Shown here piece by piece: positions 11,280 to 14,451 of a DNA stretch of 44,128 bases (position 1 is the stretch's first letter; each line of letters starts with the position of its first letter). The DNA comes from Rhodospirillales bacterium. GTDB lineage: Bacteria; Pseudomonadota; Alphaproteobacteria; Rhodospirillales; JASLLZ01. Location of the stretch: assembly GCA_030754885.1 (NCBI GenBank), contig JASLZL010000043.1:1-44128 (forward strand), given 5' to 3'. The notes beneath the pieces were generated by a model. It was not told the origin of the DNA. It did not search any database and saw only the letters and a program-made list of their open reading frames with translations. The translations under genes and the position numbers were made by a program.

Positions 11280-11472
11280 GTAATTCTTCTCCGTTTGACC
11301 CCTAGTCGAGTGAAATTATATTACAATGTCGGGCGATCCACGCCAAGGCGGCGCGTCGGACACTGGTTTGCCAGAAAAGGCCGCCGCTTCGCTTGCACCC
11401 AGCCGACGCCGTTCGTATCTTAAGGCCCCGGGTCGTGTTCCGACCCATTTGCTGCAAGAAAGCCGTGCCGCC
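11280..11472. promoter_or_regulatory. Divergent lrp/trxB promoter region
   Basis: Toward trxB, TTGACC (11295-11300) and TATATT (11317-11322) are 16 bases apart. Toward lrp, the minus strand has TTGGCG and, 17 bases on, TAATAT in the same AT-rich block. The two promoters would overlap, so one bound regulator could affect both. The trxB leader would be about 145 bases. The frame is open upstream of the trxB start, but its translation does not resemble TrxB. Confidence 0.45.
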
Positions 11473-12438
11473 ATGTCCAACTACCACCACAGCAAGGTCT
11501 TGATCATCGGTTCAGGGCCGGCCGGGTACACGGCCGCCATCTATGCCGCCCGCGCCAACCTGAAACCCACCTTGGTCAAGGGCCTGGAGCCCGGCGGACA
11601 GCTAACCATCACCACCGAAGTGGAGAATTACCCAGGTTTCGCCGAGCCCGTGCAGGGGCCGTGGCTGATGGAACAAATGCTGGCTCAAGCCGCGGCCGTC
11701 GGCACCCGCACCATCGACGACATCATCGTAAAGGCCGACCTGGGGCAACGGCCATTCGCCCTTGACGGCGATTCGGGCGACACTTACAGCAGCGATGCCC
11801 TGATTATCTGCACCGGCGCCTCGGCCCGCTGGCTGGGTCTGGAAAGTGAGCAGAGGCTGACCGGGTTTGGTGTCTCCGCCTGTGCCACCTGCGACGGTTT
11901 TTTCTTCCGCGGCAAGGAAGTGGCGGTCATCGGCGGTGGCAACACGGCGGCCGAGGAGGCGTTGTTCCTTACCAACTTCGCAACCAAGGTGACCTTGGTC
12001 CACCGCCGCGACCAACTGCGCGCCGAAAAGATCCTGCAGGACAGGGTGTTCAGCAACGACAAAATCGAAATCTTGTGGGATCACGTGGTCGATGACATTC
12101 GGGGCGACGATGATCCACCAGGGGTCAGCGGCATCGGGGTGAGGAACGTCAAGACCGGCGCAACCGCCGACGTCGCCGTCGACGGCGTCTTCATCGCCAT
12201 CGGCCATACCCCCAACACCGAGCTGTTCAAGGGACAGTTGAAGATGGATGGAGAGGGCTACATCGTGACCGCTCCAGACAGCACAGCGACCGATGTGCCA
12301 GGAGTCTTCGCCACCGGAGATGTCCAAGACAAGGTCTATCGCCAGGCGGTTACCGCCGCCGGCACCGGCTGCATGGGGGCTTTGGAGGCGGAGCGGTTCC
12401 TGGCCGAGAGCGAAATTAAGGCCGAGGCCGCCGATTAG
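11473..12438 (+). CDS. trxB: Thioredoxin-disulfide reductase TrxB
   Basis: This flavoenzyme reduces thioredoxin with NADPH in the cytoplasm. From the ATG at 11473 it has 321 residues, the family length. It has an N-terminal FAD-binding GSGPAGYTAAIYAARA motif, the redox-active CATC centre (Cys137 and Cys140 in SACATCDGFF), an NADPH-binding VIGGGNTAAEEA motif with HRRDQLRAEK, and the C-terminal FAD motif GVFATGDVQDKVYRQAVTAAG. The frame is open back to 11326, but the extra 49 residues are unlike the family. The LsrB-type regulator follows 41 bases downstream on the same strand, so they probably share a transcript. Confidence 0.97.
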   Translation: MSNYHHSKVLIIGSGPAGYTAAIYAARANLKPTLVKGLEPGGQLTITTEVENYPGFAEPVQGPWLMEQMLAQAAAVGTRTIDDIIVKADLGQRPFALDGDSGDTYSSDALIICTGASARWLGLESEQRLTGFGVSACATCDGFFFRGKEVAVIGGGNTAAEEALFLTNFATKVTLVHRRDQLRAEKILQDRVFSNDKIEILWDHVVDDIRGDDDPPGVSGIGVRNVKTGATADVAVDGVFIAIGHTPNTELFKGQLKMDGEGYIVTAPDSTATDVPGVFATGDVQDKVYRQAVTAAGTGCMGALEAERFLAESEIKAEAAD

Positions 12439-12479
12439 TCGGTCGGGGGGAATCGGGGCGGAAACGACAGGGTGAGGGC

Positions 12480-13370
12480 ATGGACTGGGATAAACTCCGC
12501 ATCTTCCACGTTGTGGCCGAAGCGGGAAGTTTTACTCACGCCGCGGAAAGCCTGAACCTGAGCCAGTCGGCGGTCAGCCGGCAGATCAGCGGACTTGAGG
12601 GCAGTCTCAACATGCCCTTGTTTCACCGCCATGCCCGCGGCCCTATCCTTACCGAACAGGGTGAGCTTTTGTTTCGCACGGCGCGCGAGGTGTTCACCAA
12701 GGTGACGACGACGGAAACGCGAATCCGCGAGAGCAAGGAGCGTCCTCAGGGACCGCTTCGGGTAACGACGACGGTGGCCTTCGGCTCGGTCTGGCTAACT
12801 CCGCGCATCAAGGAATTCAACGACCACTATCCCGAAATTTCGCTCAGTTTGGTGCTCAACGACGGGGAACTGGATCTCGGCATGCGCGAGGCCGATGTCG
12901 TTATACGCATGTTGCCGCCGCGCCAGCCCGATCTGATCCAGCGTCACCTTATGACCATGCAGTACCACATCTACGCGACGCCCGAGTACCTGCGCAAACA
13001 CGGCATGCCAAAGTCGCCCAAGGACTTGGACCATCATAAAATCATCGCTTTCGGCGAGGACGCGGAGCCGCCGGTGGAGCGCGCCAACTGGCTTTTGGAA
13101 GAGGGACCGTCGCCCGGTAAGCAGCGCCGCGCGACCCTTAAAGTCAACAATGTTTACGGCATTTACCGTGCCGTGCAGAGTGGCCTGGGAATTGCCGCGC
13201 TGCCCGACTACATGAGCAAGGAGGCGAGCAATCTGGTCGAGATTCTGCCCGAGCTGCGAGGGCCGAGCTACGACGCCTATTTCGTCTACCCCGAAGAGCT
13301 GCGGCAATCGAAGCGAATCATCGTTTTCCGCGATTTTTTGCTGCGCAAAATAGGTGAAGCCGGCTTTTAA
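12480..13370 (+). CDS. lsrB: LysR-family regulator of the LsrB/VtlR type
   Basis: This transcription factor has 296 residues. The N-terminal winged helix-turn-helix (DWDKLRIFHVVAEAGSFTHA, then LNLSQSAVSRQISGLE) and the following HRHARGPILTEQGELLF are the signature of the alphaproteobacterial LsrB/VtlR group. These proteins control envelope, redox and virulence or symbiosis functions and activate an AbcR small RNA in known species. The C-terminal part is a periplasmic-binding-like co-inducer domain (from about residue 90). Its position after trxB matches the rhizobial and Brucella order as I know it. The protein contains no cysteine, which argues against direct thiol sensing. A LysR-type palindrome and an sRNA-like gene lie directly downstream. 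Confidence 0.85.
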   Translation: MDWDKLRIFHVVAEAGSFTHAAESLNLSQSAVSRQISGLEGSLNMPLFHRHARGPILTEQGELLFRTAREVFTKVTTTETRIRESKERPQGPLRVTTTVAFGSVWLTPRIKEFNDHYPEISLSLVLNDGELDLGMREADVVIRMLPPRQPDLIQRHLMTMQYHIYATPEYLRKHGMPKSPKDLDHHKIIAFGEDAEPPVERANWLLEEGPSPGKQRRATLKVNNVYGIYRAVQSGLGIAALPDYMSKEASNLVEILPELRGPSYDAYFVYPEELRQSKRIIVFRDFLLRKIGEAGF

Positions 13371-13391
13371 ACGCGCAGATAGAGTTTGGCG

Positions 13392-13405
13392 GGGGAATTT
13401 TCCCC
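13392..13405. repeat. Short GGGGAA-TT-TTCCCC inverted repeat
   Basis: A 6-base stem, GGGGAA and TTCCCC, is separated by two bases 21 bases after the lsrB stop. It has no T-run after it. It could be a weak transcription barrier or a protein-binding site. It lies 9 bases before the LysR-type palindrome. Confidence 0.35.
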
Positions 13406-13414
13406 ATCCCAGCC

Positions 13415-13429
13415 ATGCAAATTTTGCAT
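13415..13429. promoter_or_regulatory. LysR-type operator (perfect T-N11-A palindrome), candidate LsrB site
   Basis: ATGCAAATTTTGCAT is a perfect 15-base inverted repeat with a single central base and contains the T-N11-A core of LysR-type binding sites. It lies 44 bases after the lsrB stop. It is about 75 bases ahead of the predicted start of the downstream RNA, close to the usual -65 recognition position. It is therefore a good candidate for activation of that RNA by the adjacent LsrB-type protein. Confidence 0.6.
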
Positions 13430-13461
13430 AGGTGGGATGCCATTATACGTGTGGTATCCGC

Positions 13462-13489
13462 TTATCAGACGATGTATATTTGGTATATC
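13462..13489 (+). promoter_or_regulatory. Weak candidate promoter for the AbcR-like RNA
   Basis: TTATCA (13462-13467) and TATATC (13484-13489) are 16 bases apart. Both boxes are imperfect, which would fit a promoter that needs an activator. The LysR-type palindrome is just upstream. Confidence 0.3.
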
Positions 13490-13495
13490 AGTTTC

Positions 13496-13656
13496 CGGTT
13501 ATGTTGCATAGCAACAGAAGCTGTGGAACGATCAGTTTCGGGCGCAAGGCCCGGAAGAAGGGTCCATTGCCTAGCTTAGCGCGATGGATCCTACGTCTCC
13601 CAGACGTGAAGCCTCCCTGTTAAACTCGCCGGGAACCTTGTGTTCCCGGCTTTTTT
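13496..13656 (+). ncRNA. AbcR-like (alpha-r15) Hfq-type small RNA
   Basis: No protein fits here, but the strand folds well. There is a small hairpin GTTGC-ATA-GCAAC (13503-13515) and an 8-bp stem TTTCGGGC/GCCCGGAA with loop GCAAG (13536-13556). A second 8-bp stem GGGTCCAT/ATGGATCC follows, then ACGTCT-CCC-AGACGT exposing CTCCC in its loop. A single-stranded GAAGCCTCCCTGTTAAAC precedes a strong terminator. CU-rich motifs that can pair with Shine-Dalgarno sequences, followed directly by a terminator hairpin, are the hallmark of AbcR RNAs, which repress transporter mRNAs. The position beside an LsrB/VtlR gene supports this. The 5' end is uncertain. If the RNA is about 120 nt it begins near 13536. 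Confidence 0.6.
13628..13656 (+). terminator. Rho-independent terminator of the AbcR-like RNA
   Basis: A perfect 9-bp stem, GCCGGGAAC (13628-13636) and GTTCCCGGC (13642-13650), with loop CTTGT is followed by six T. It is the strongest intrinsic terminator seen in the window. Confidence 0.9.
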
Positions 13657-13803
13657 GCTTGTGGGGTCCTTCCAAGCACATTTCAGCGCCGTATCCTCGA
13701 TCACCGGCACATGGCGGAAGTGCCCTTTTTGCATGATGCGGATCACGTCGAAGACCCGGCCCTGTATCCGCGATGGCTCGACGCAAAGGACCGTTGGGAT
13801 TAC

Positions 13804-14451
13804 ATGTCAAGGATGAACATCAAAATCACGGCCCGCTCATTGCCCAAAGCCCTTGCCGAATTGGGGGATACGGACCCCGACATGGCCGTTGCCCTTGCCC
13901 ATGCCGGTAATCCTCCACTGCGCCGGCGCCCGGCGGGCTTCGCCACCGTGTTGCGGATCATCATCGCTCAGCAGGTCTCGACGGCATCGGCCCGGGCCAT
14001 CTTGGGTCGGCTGGACAAGGCGGCACGTCCTCTGACGCCCGAGACCTTCCTGGCCCTCGACGATCAGGCGCTCAGCGCTATCGGCTTCAGCCGTCAGAAG
14101 GTGGGTTACGGGCGCGGGCTCGCAATTGAGGTGGCGGAGGGACGCCTGGTCCTCAATCAATTGGCGCGCCTAGACGACGAGGCAGCGATCGCGGAACTGA
14201 CGGTCGTCAAGGGCATCGGCCGGTGGACGGCGGAGATCTACTTGATGTTTGCTCTCGGTCGTCCCGACGTTTGGCCGTCGGCCGACCTAGGGTTGGCTCA
14301 GGCCGTCCGACACCTCAAGGGTATGAAAGAGCGGCCCAACCCGAAACGGATGATGGAAATCGGCGAAGATTGGCGACCGTGGCGAAGCGTGGCCAGCTTG
14401 CTGCTTTGGCATTATCTCCACAAGGTCGAGGCCGACTCTAAGGTGCGCTAG
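13804..14451 (+). CDS. DNA-3-methyladenine glycosylase II (AlkA-type, HhH-GPD)
   Basis: This base-excision repair enzyme of 215 residues removes alkylated purines. The helix-hairpin-helix GPD domain includes RIIIAQQVSTASARAILGRL near residue 60. The hairpin TVVKGIGRWTAEIYLMFALG is followed by the catalytic Asp in WPSADLGLAQAV. The start is placed at 13804, with GGGA just upstream. An ATG at 13813 is also possible, and the open frame to 13711 overlaps the sRNA downstream region and is not family-like. It stands alone between the sRNA and a convergent hydrolase. Confidence 0.88.
   Translation: MSRMNIKITARSLPKALAELGDTDPDMAVALAHAGNPPLRRRPAGFATVLRIIIAQQVSTASARAILGRLDKAARPLTPETFLALDDQALSAIGFSRQKVGYGRGLAIEVAEGRLVLNQLARLDDEAAIAELTVVKGIGRWTAEIYLMFALGRPDVWPSADLGLAQAVRHLKGMKERPNPKRMMEIGEDWRPWRSVASLLLWHYLHKVEADSKVR

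Follow-up and report, generated by a model that had tools for sequence, protein, structure and literature searches.

A predicted LsrB-linked small RNA with anti-Shine-Dalgarno motifs behind trxB-lsrB in Rhodospirillales

The 44,128-nucleotide stretch of Rhodospirillales DNA analyzed here (the window) carries, directly behind the gene pair trxB-lsrB, a conserved RNA gene with a defined secondary structure, an operator that contains a published regulator box, and a linkage to lsrB in a position shared with the small RNAs (sRNAs) AbcR and SorY. We infer that this RNA is transcribed under activation by LsrB and, aided by Hfq, silences transporter mRNAs through anti-Shine-Dalgarno (anti-SD) pairing, and we regard such an lsrB-sRNA module as the probable explanation of the locus as a whole. 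The gene order trxB-lsrB (11326-13370) is followed by operator, -10 element, predicted sRNA, and terminator (Table 1).

Table 1. Positions and properties of the features at the lsrB-sRNA locus, numbered along the window
Feature	Position	Strand	Remarks
trxB, thioredoxin reductase	11326-12438	+	syntenic marker; TIGR01292, 399.9 bits, above cut-off
lsrB/vtlR-type LysR regulator	12480-13370	+	296 aa, cysteine-free
Predicted LsrB operator	13406-13438	.	two inverted VtlR boxes (GCAT-N3-TG-N3-T) flanking ATGCAAATTTTGCAT
Predicted -10 element, GTATAT	13474-13479	+	YTAWAW of relatives usually 43-44 nt after the palindrome
Predicted sRNA	13487-13656	+	~170 nt; inferred 5' end to within about ±10 nt
SL1, 5' hairpin TGTTGC-ATA-GCAACA	13502-13516	+	helix 1; 93% of cells paired; 4 pairs with two-sided changes
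SL2, hairpin	13536-13556	+	helix 2; 76% paired; 5 pairs with two-sided changes
SL3, hairpin	13559-13592	+	helix 3; 82% paired; 5 pairs with two-sided changes
SL4, ACGUCU-CCC-AGACGU	13593-13607	+	CUCCC motif 1; sequence nearly invariant class-wide
Single-stranded anti-SD motif CCUCCCUGUU	13612-13621	+	CUCCC motif 2; near-invariant in relatives
Rho-independent terminator with T6	13628-13656 (hairpin 13628-13650)	+	6 of 7 pairs with two-sided changes

Fold and conservation of the predicted RNA

The predicted RNA folds more stably than all 200 dinucleotide shuffles, with z = -5.5 for 13500-13657 and -5.1 (-5.07) for 13487-13656. The initial annotation had proposed four hairpins and a strong terminator behind them; the hairpins are present, but their number is five with the terminator included, and the terminator was confirmed by a terminator scan. 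Likewise, the segment CCUCCCUGUU that had been read as single-stranded is unpaired in the centroid fold, and the CTCCC thought to be exposed in a loop is so in part, as only CCC is unpaired in SL4 (UCCCA if the top pair opens). The suspicion that the RNA is longer than usual holds, given the predicted ~170 nt as compared to the 112 positions of the ar15 model. A 40-codon open reading frame (ATG 13501 to TAA 13623), which runs from SL1 to the anti-SD segment, was considered as a small protein and rejected: it is not conserved, since relatives have the core in a different frame or an early stop, and it is shared with some of them only because the core itself is conserved.

Within the same order, the sRNA was found downstream of lsrB in 46 of 53 other LsrB loci (including the divergent L027, L032, and L035, recognized by the model), and the segment from ACGTCTCCCAGACGTGAAGCCTCCCTGTT to the terminator is almost unchanged in most order-level loci, which strongly contradicts the possibility, raised at the outset, that loops and CU motifs lack conservation in relatives. 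The sRNA is absent at the lsrB loci L011, L018, L033, L047, and L053, and two tandem copies occur at L017, L020, L024, L030, L049, and L052. In several relatives (L003, L008, L026, L034, L038, and L040), the SL3 loop carries an extra CCTCCC, which suggests a lineage-specific gain of further anti-SD sites.

Covariation was assessed on an alignment of 32 order-level sequences (A2), with a five-helix structure taken from the fold of the studied locus. On this alignment, 86.7% of cells are paired, a percentage that is somewhat flattered because one of the aligned sequences supplied the structure; cells with two-sided changes number 99 as compared to 38.7 in shuffles, the covariation score is 0.287 as compared to 0.171, and shifting the helix partners lowers all measures, with register 0 being the best. 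The compensatory changes are carried by SL1, SL2, SL3, and the terminator; SL4 hardly varies and is uninformative either way. RNAalifold on a MAFFT alignment missed SL2 and SL3, which were counted instead as structure from the fold of the studied locus. The comparison with relatives that had been called for hence supports the helices by compensatory changes, and, as judged from the aligned sequences, a chance structure is excluded by the near-identical core, these changes, and the conserved palindrome described below.

The covariance model R1 scores 135.6 bits (E 2.4e-35, 13494-13656) at the studied locus, which is among the model's own sequences, and finds matches in 96 of 192 alphaproteobacterial genomes at E <= 0.001, as compared to two weak matches outside the class among 199 genomes sampled from the phylum. 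When coordinates are tallied for the stronger R1 matches, 80 of 119 LsrB-positive genomes carry the sRNA; its distance behind lsrB is 67-423 nt in 62 of these, and 68 have it within 7 kb; six genomes have the sRNA with no LsrB found at 1e-60. The core lies behind lsrB in, for example, Thalassospira, Magnetovibrio blakemorei MV-1, Azospirillum brasilense and griseum, Kiloniella majae, Reyranella, Niveispirillum, Roseomonas, Belnapia, and others. The compact unit of regulator, operator, and sRNA in a non-rhizobial lineage, as initially annotated, is thus supported, but it is standard in the order and much of the class and no local peculiarity.

Regulator, operator, and promoter

Searches found an lsrB orthologue in 59 of 60 relatives and, across the class, in 119 of 192 genomes, and trxB (whose listed open reading frame possibly starts upstream of the true start) adjoins lsrB in nearly all order-level relatives. 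NCBIfam LysR models match the protein only below their curated cut-offs; its early designation as an LsrB-type regulator is borne out by full-length orthology to LsrB/VtlR together with trxB-lsrB synteny. LsrB of Agrobacterium senses redox state through a thiol switch with C144 and C273 (PMC11975290). Neither redox-sensing cysteine is found at the studied locus, where LsrB contains no Cys residue at all, and no conserved Cys column exists across 114 LsrB homologues. Since the protein is cysteine-free, an Agrobacterium-type thiol switch cannot operate here and some other signal must exist.

Downstream of lsrB, the perfect T-N11-A palindrome ATGCAAATTTTGCAT is found exactly where it had first been noticed (13415-13429), within an operator that proved longer than first seen. 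The full operator, ATCCCAGCCATGCAAATTTTGCATAGGTGGGAT, matches the VtlR box in both palindrome arms, with exact boxes in both orientations (13426-13438 and 13418-13406); this box, GCAT-N3-TG-N3-T, is known from Brucella and Agrobacterium (PMC7486931). As roughly one ATGC-N7-GCAT is expected by chance in 44 kb (mean 1.3 in shuffles), the palindrome alone proves nothing and the case needs comparison. Among 111 loci, 86 have ATGC-N5..9-GCAT upstream of the core, as compared to a mean of 2.5 and a largest value of 9 in shuffles, and the consensus around the palindrome, AGCCATGC-N7-GCATGGCTGnnTTG, contains the VtlR box. From palindrome end to 5' hairpin, the distance is usually 64-67 bp, and 74 bp at the studied locus. 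Six further single matches to GCAT-N3-TG-N3-T occur in the 44-kb stretch (1095 and 28424 on the forward strand; 11798, 34099, 35974, and 38589 on the reverse strand), none of which has the full ATGC-N7-GCAT dyad.

The weak -35/-10 pair of the initial annotation did not withstand a promoter scan, which gave no consensus sigma-70 pair; the conserved element is the -10 alone, with TATATC (13484-13489) as a second candidate. In S. meliloti, abcR1 has a VtlR box at -61 to -49, plus a CTATAT -10 (PMC8844928). The geometry of -10 and operator in the window matches that of PabcR1 (PMC8844928), and this published geometry places the predicted -10 at 13474-13479 and the predicted start near 13487.

The missing consensus -35/-10 could conversely mean that the structured region is merely the 3' UTR of lsrB with its terminator, from which the sRNA would be processed instead of being separately promoted, as for SorX. 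The region indeed follows lsrB directly and has the same orientation, and the best sub-threshold Rfam match is to SorX (29 bits), described as 3'-UTR-derived (cited in PMC7074977). However, a conserved operator and -10 stand between lsrB and the RNA at a nearly fixed distance from the 5' hairpin, tandem sRNA copies occur behind one lsrB, and copies far from lsrB retain operator and hairpins, so that such an origin appears improbable. The palindrome is kept at copies located on another contig than lsrB or at a distance from it in G236, G147, G082, and Tistrella mobilis pTM3, and is absent at the unlinked copy of G179; where the separation from lsrB is 2-3 kb, the copy of G206 has it and that of G197 does not. 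In most cases, the operator has thus moved along with the RNA gene. The same observation bears on the idea that the RNA acts in cis only, with the palindrome used for autoregulation or by another gene: LysR regulators do often autoregulate, as is generally known, but the palindrome lies downstream of lsrB, a strong terminator precedes the next gene, and the palindrome accompanies unlinked RNA copies, which leaves this idea with very little plausibility. A separately promoted, LsrB-controlled sRNA is hence our preferred reading.

In four genomes, the sRNA lies 2-6 kb from lsrB (G085, G194, G206, and G228). The copy on plasmid pTM3 of Tistrella mobilis (L115, 2823-3063) is unlinked and unannotated and shows a VtlR-type dyad as well as several extra CUCCC hairpins.

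Proposed function and its significance

Most likely, the RNA is activated by LsrB and acts in trans, blocking transporter mRNAs at their ribosome-binding sites. LsrB of the VtlR type would bind the dyad and, once bound, would activate a promoter that has a good -10 but lacks a -35. The resulting RNA of ~170 nt would fold such that two C-rich anti-SD segments, the SL4 loop and CCUCCCUGUU, are accessible and, with Hfq, may pair with GGGAG-type ribosome-binding sites. Its targets would probably be mRNAs of periplasmic-binding-protein (ABC/TRAP) transporters, and active LsrB would consequently lower uptake, the module thus serving as a nutrient-uptake brake.

Precedents for such a function exist: AbcR silences ABC transporter mRNAs through anti-SD motifs (PMC8844928, PMC3712013), and SorY silences a malate transporter mRNA (PMC8307010). 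In the relatives, 27 of 48 transporter binding-protein genes (Peripla_BP_6/DctP) carry GGGAG in their SD region as compared to 44 of 306 controls, whereby the genes compared are not independent samples. This enrichment is not specific, because the SDs of binding-protein genes are stronger as a whole (GGAGG in 21 of 48 versus 48 of 306 controls), and a CA ahead of GGGAG, which would extend the pairing past the SD, shows no enrichment among binding-protein genes. The SD statistics agree with transporter silencing and are no proof of it. A strict target motif, AACAGGGAG-N(3-11)-ATG, was also tried and rejected, as its three sites in the genome include none that is evidently a transporter.

If the preferred reading holds, an RNA gene that Rfam lacks, and that about half of the sampled alphaproteobacterial genomes carry, gains a promoter and a testable regulator, and the main conserved output of LsrB is predicted to be an sRNA. 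The module is open to tests in bacteria that are tractable and non-pathogenic, for example Azospirillum, Thalassospira, or Magnetovibrio.

Relation to AbcR, SorY, SorX, and suhB

At gathering scores, Rfam gives no match for the studied region, and Rfam 15 has no family for this sRNA. The AbcR-like identity of the initial annotation could not be upheld by the ar15/AbcR covariance model (RF02345, cut-off 40 bits), which has no match at E <= 10 in 13200-13900 and finds none of the 192 class genomes, while the same model works in ar15-positive genomes. There, ar15 forms a tandem pair directly behind trxB-lsrB, and it takes the same place in L228 and L229. Apart from this shared placement, the VtlR box upstream of the promoter and two accessible anti-SD motifs (the partly paired CUCCC in SL4 and CCUCCCUGUU) are likewise found in the window, the latter with sequences unlike those of AbcR. 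Roseibium lsrB loci show weak matches to both ar15 (25-30 bits) and R1 (15-20 bits), which would be compatible with intermediates. A relation to AbcR is supported by locus, operator, and these weak intermediates, and not by sequence identity.

SorY (RF02651) reaches 20.6 bits at the studied locus, against a cut-off of 111 bits. The best SorY match lies behind lsrB in 9 of 11 Rhodobacter-type genomes and at 11 of 13 further loci (the labels Rhodobacter-type and ar15-positive rest on the SorY and ar15 matches themselves), among them that of the only genome of 121 above the Rfam SorY cut-off, in which an ATGC-N7-GCAT dyad separates lsrB from SorY. Several of the SorY loci are also matched by R1. 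SorY-type sRNAs directly behind an lsrB orthologue were seen at L257 (1501-1583), L240-L248, and L258-L268, and SorY is accordingly predicted to be an LsrB target.

The remaining sub-threshold Rfam matches, SorX (29.0 bits, the best) and suhB (23.8 bits, cut-off 41), and the shared 3' CCUCCCUGUU-terminator module could also point to an orthologue of mmgR (Rfam suhB) or SorX that sits beside lsrB by chance rather than to an AbcR/SorY locus. The genome (G000) does, however, encode a separate suhB-like paralogue of the same 3' type on contig C78 (16816-16965; L197, 1501-1650), with 39.7 bits for R1 and, below cut-off, 29.2 bits for suhB. This second sRNA, probably the mmgR/suhB homologue, lacks the ATGC-N7-GCAT dyad and has a different context, behind what we take to be a small DUF1192-like gene. 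As the linkage to lsrB is moreover kept across many families, the orthology to mmgR or SorX is quite unlikely, slightly more so than the 3'-UTR origin weighed above, and the assignment to the AbcR/SorY locus is preferred.

Since ar15 and SorY are located at this very position behind lsrB in ar15-positive and Rhodobacter-type genomes, respectively, all three probably derive from one LsrB-sRNA module. In position and operator, the window sRNA, ar15, and SorY resemble a single module; in sequence, the window sRNA belongs to neither family. With somewhat more confidence than doubt, we propose that LsrB together with a dyad-controlled anti-SD sRNA is an ancestral module of the Alphaproteobacteria, of which AbcR and SorY would be local descendants and the unnamed family the form in many other lineages. 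AbcR and SorY, studied separately, would thereby be joined to one locus. The known versions (AbcR in rhizobia, SorY in Rhodobacter) have been described separately, and no published description was found for the present sRNA: a literature search found none for the core sequence among 5.39 million papers and none for AbcR together with Rhodospirillales, and the core sequence is absent from the main text of an A. brasilense sRNA paper.

Compared to known systems, the sRNA shares its 3' CCUCCCUGUU-terminator module with mmgR/suhB (RF00519) and SorX (RF02784), but remains below the gathering scores of both. With SorY of Rhodobacter sphaeroides, the CCUCCCUGUU-GACUU-terminator part can be aligned and SorY-type genes likewise lie behind lsrB; SorY, however, is shorter (83-position model), SL1-SL3 are not recognizable in it, and it is reported to be under the control of stress sigma factors in R. 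sphaeroides (PMC8307010). LsrB in the window differs from the redox-sensing LsrB of Agrobacterium and Sinorhizobium by the lack of any cysteine. For S. meliloti, one study found the AbcR sRNAs to be independent of LsrB (PMC7486931), and another found LsrB to be responsible for AbcR1 (PMC8844928). As compared to AbcR1/AbcR2 (alpha-r15, Rhizobiales), the present sRNA is longer and has additional 5' hairpins, its LsrB is cysteine-free, a covariance-model match is missing, and UCUCCCA and CCUCCCUGUU take the place of CUCCUCCC and UUCCCCUC as anti-SD segments. Common to both are the order trxB-lsrB-sRNA, the VtlR box at the same promoter position, a CTATAT-type -10, CU-rich anti-SD motifs in a hairpin and a single strand, a terminator, and frequent tandem copies, those found here paralleling the tandem copies of AbcR in rhizobia.
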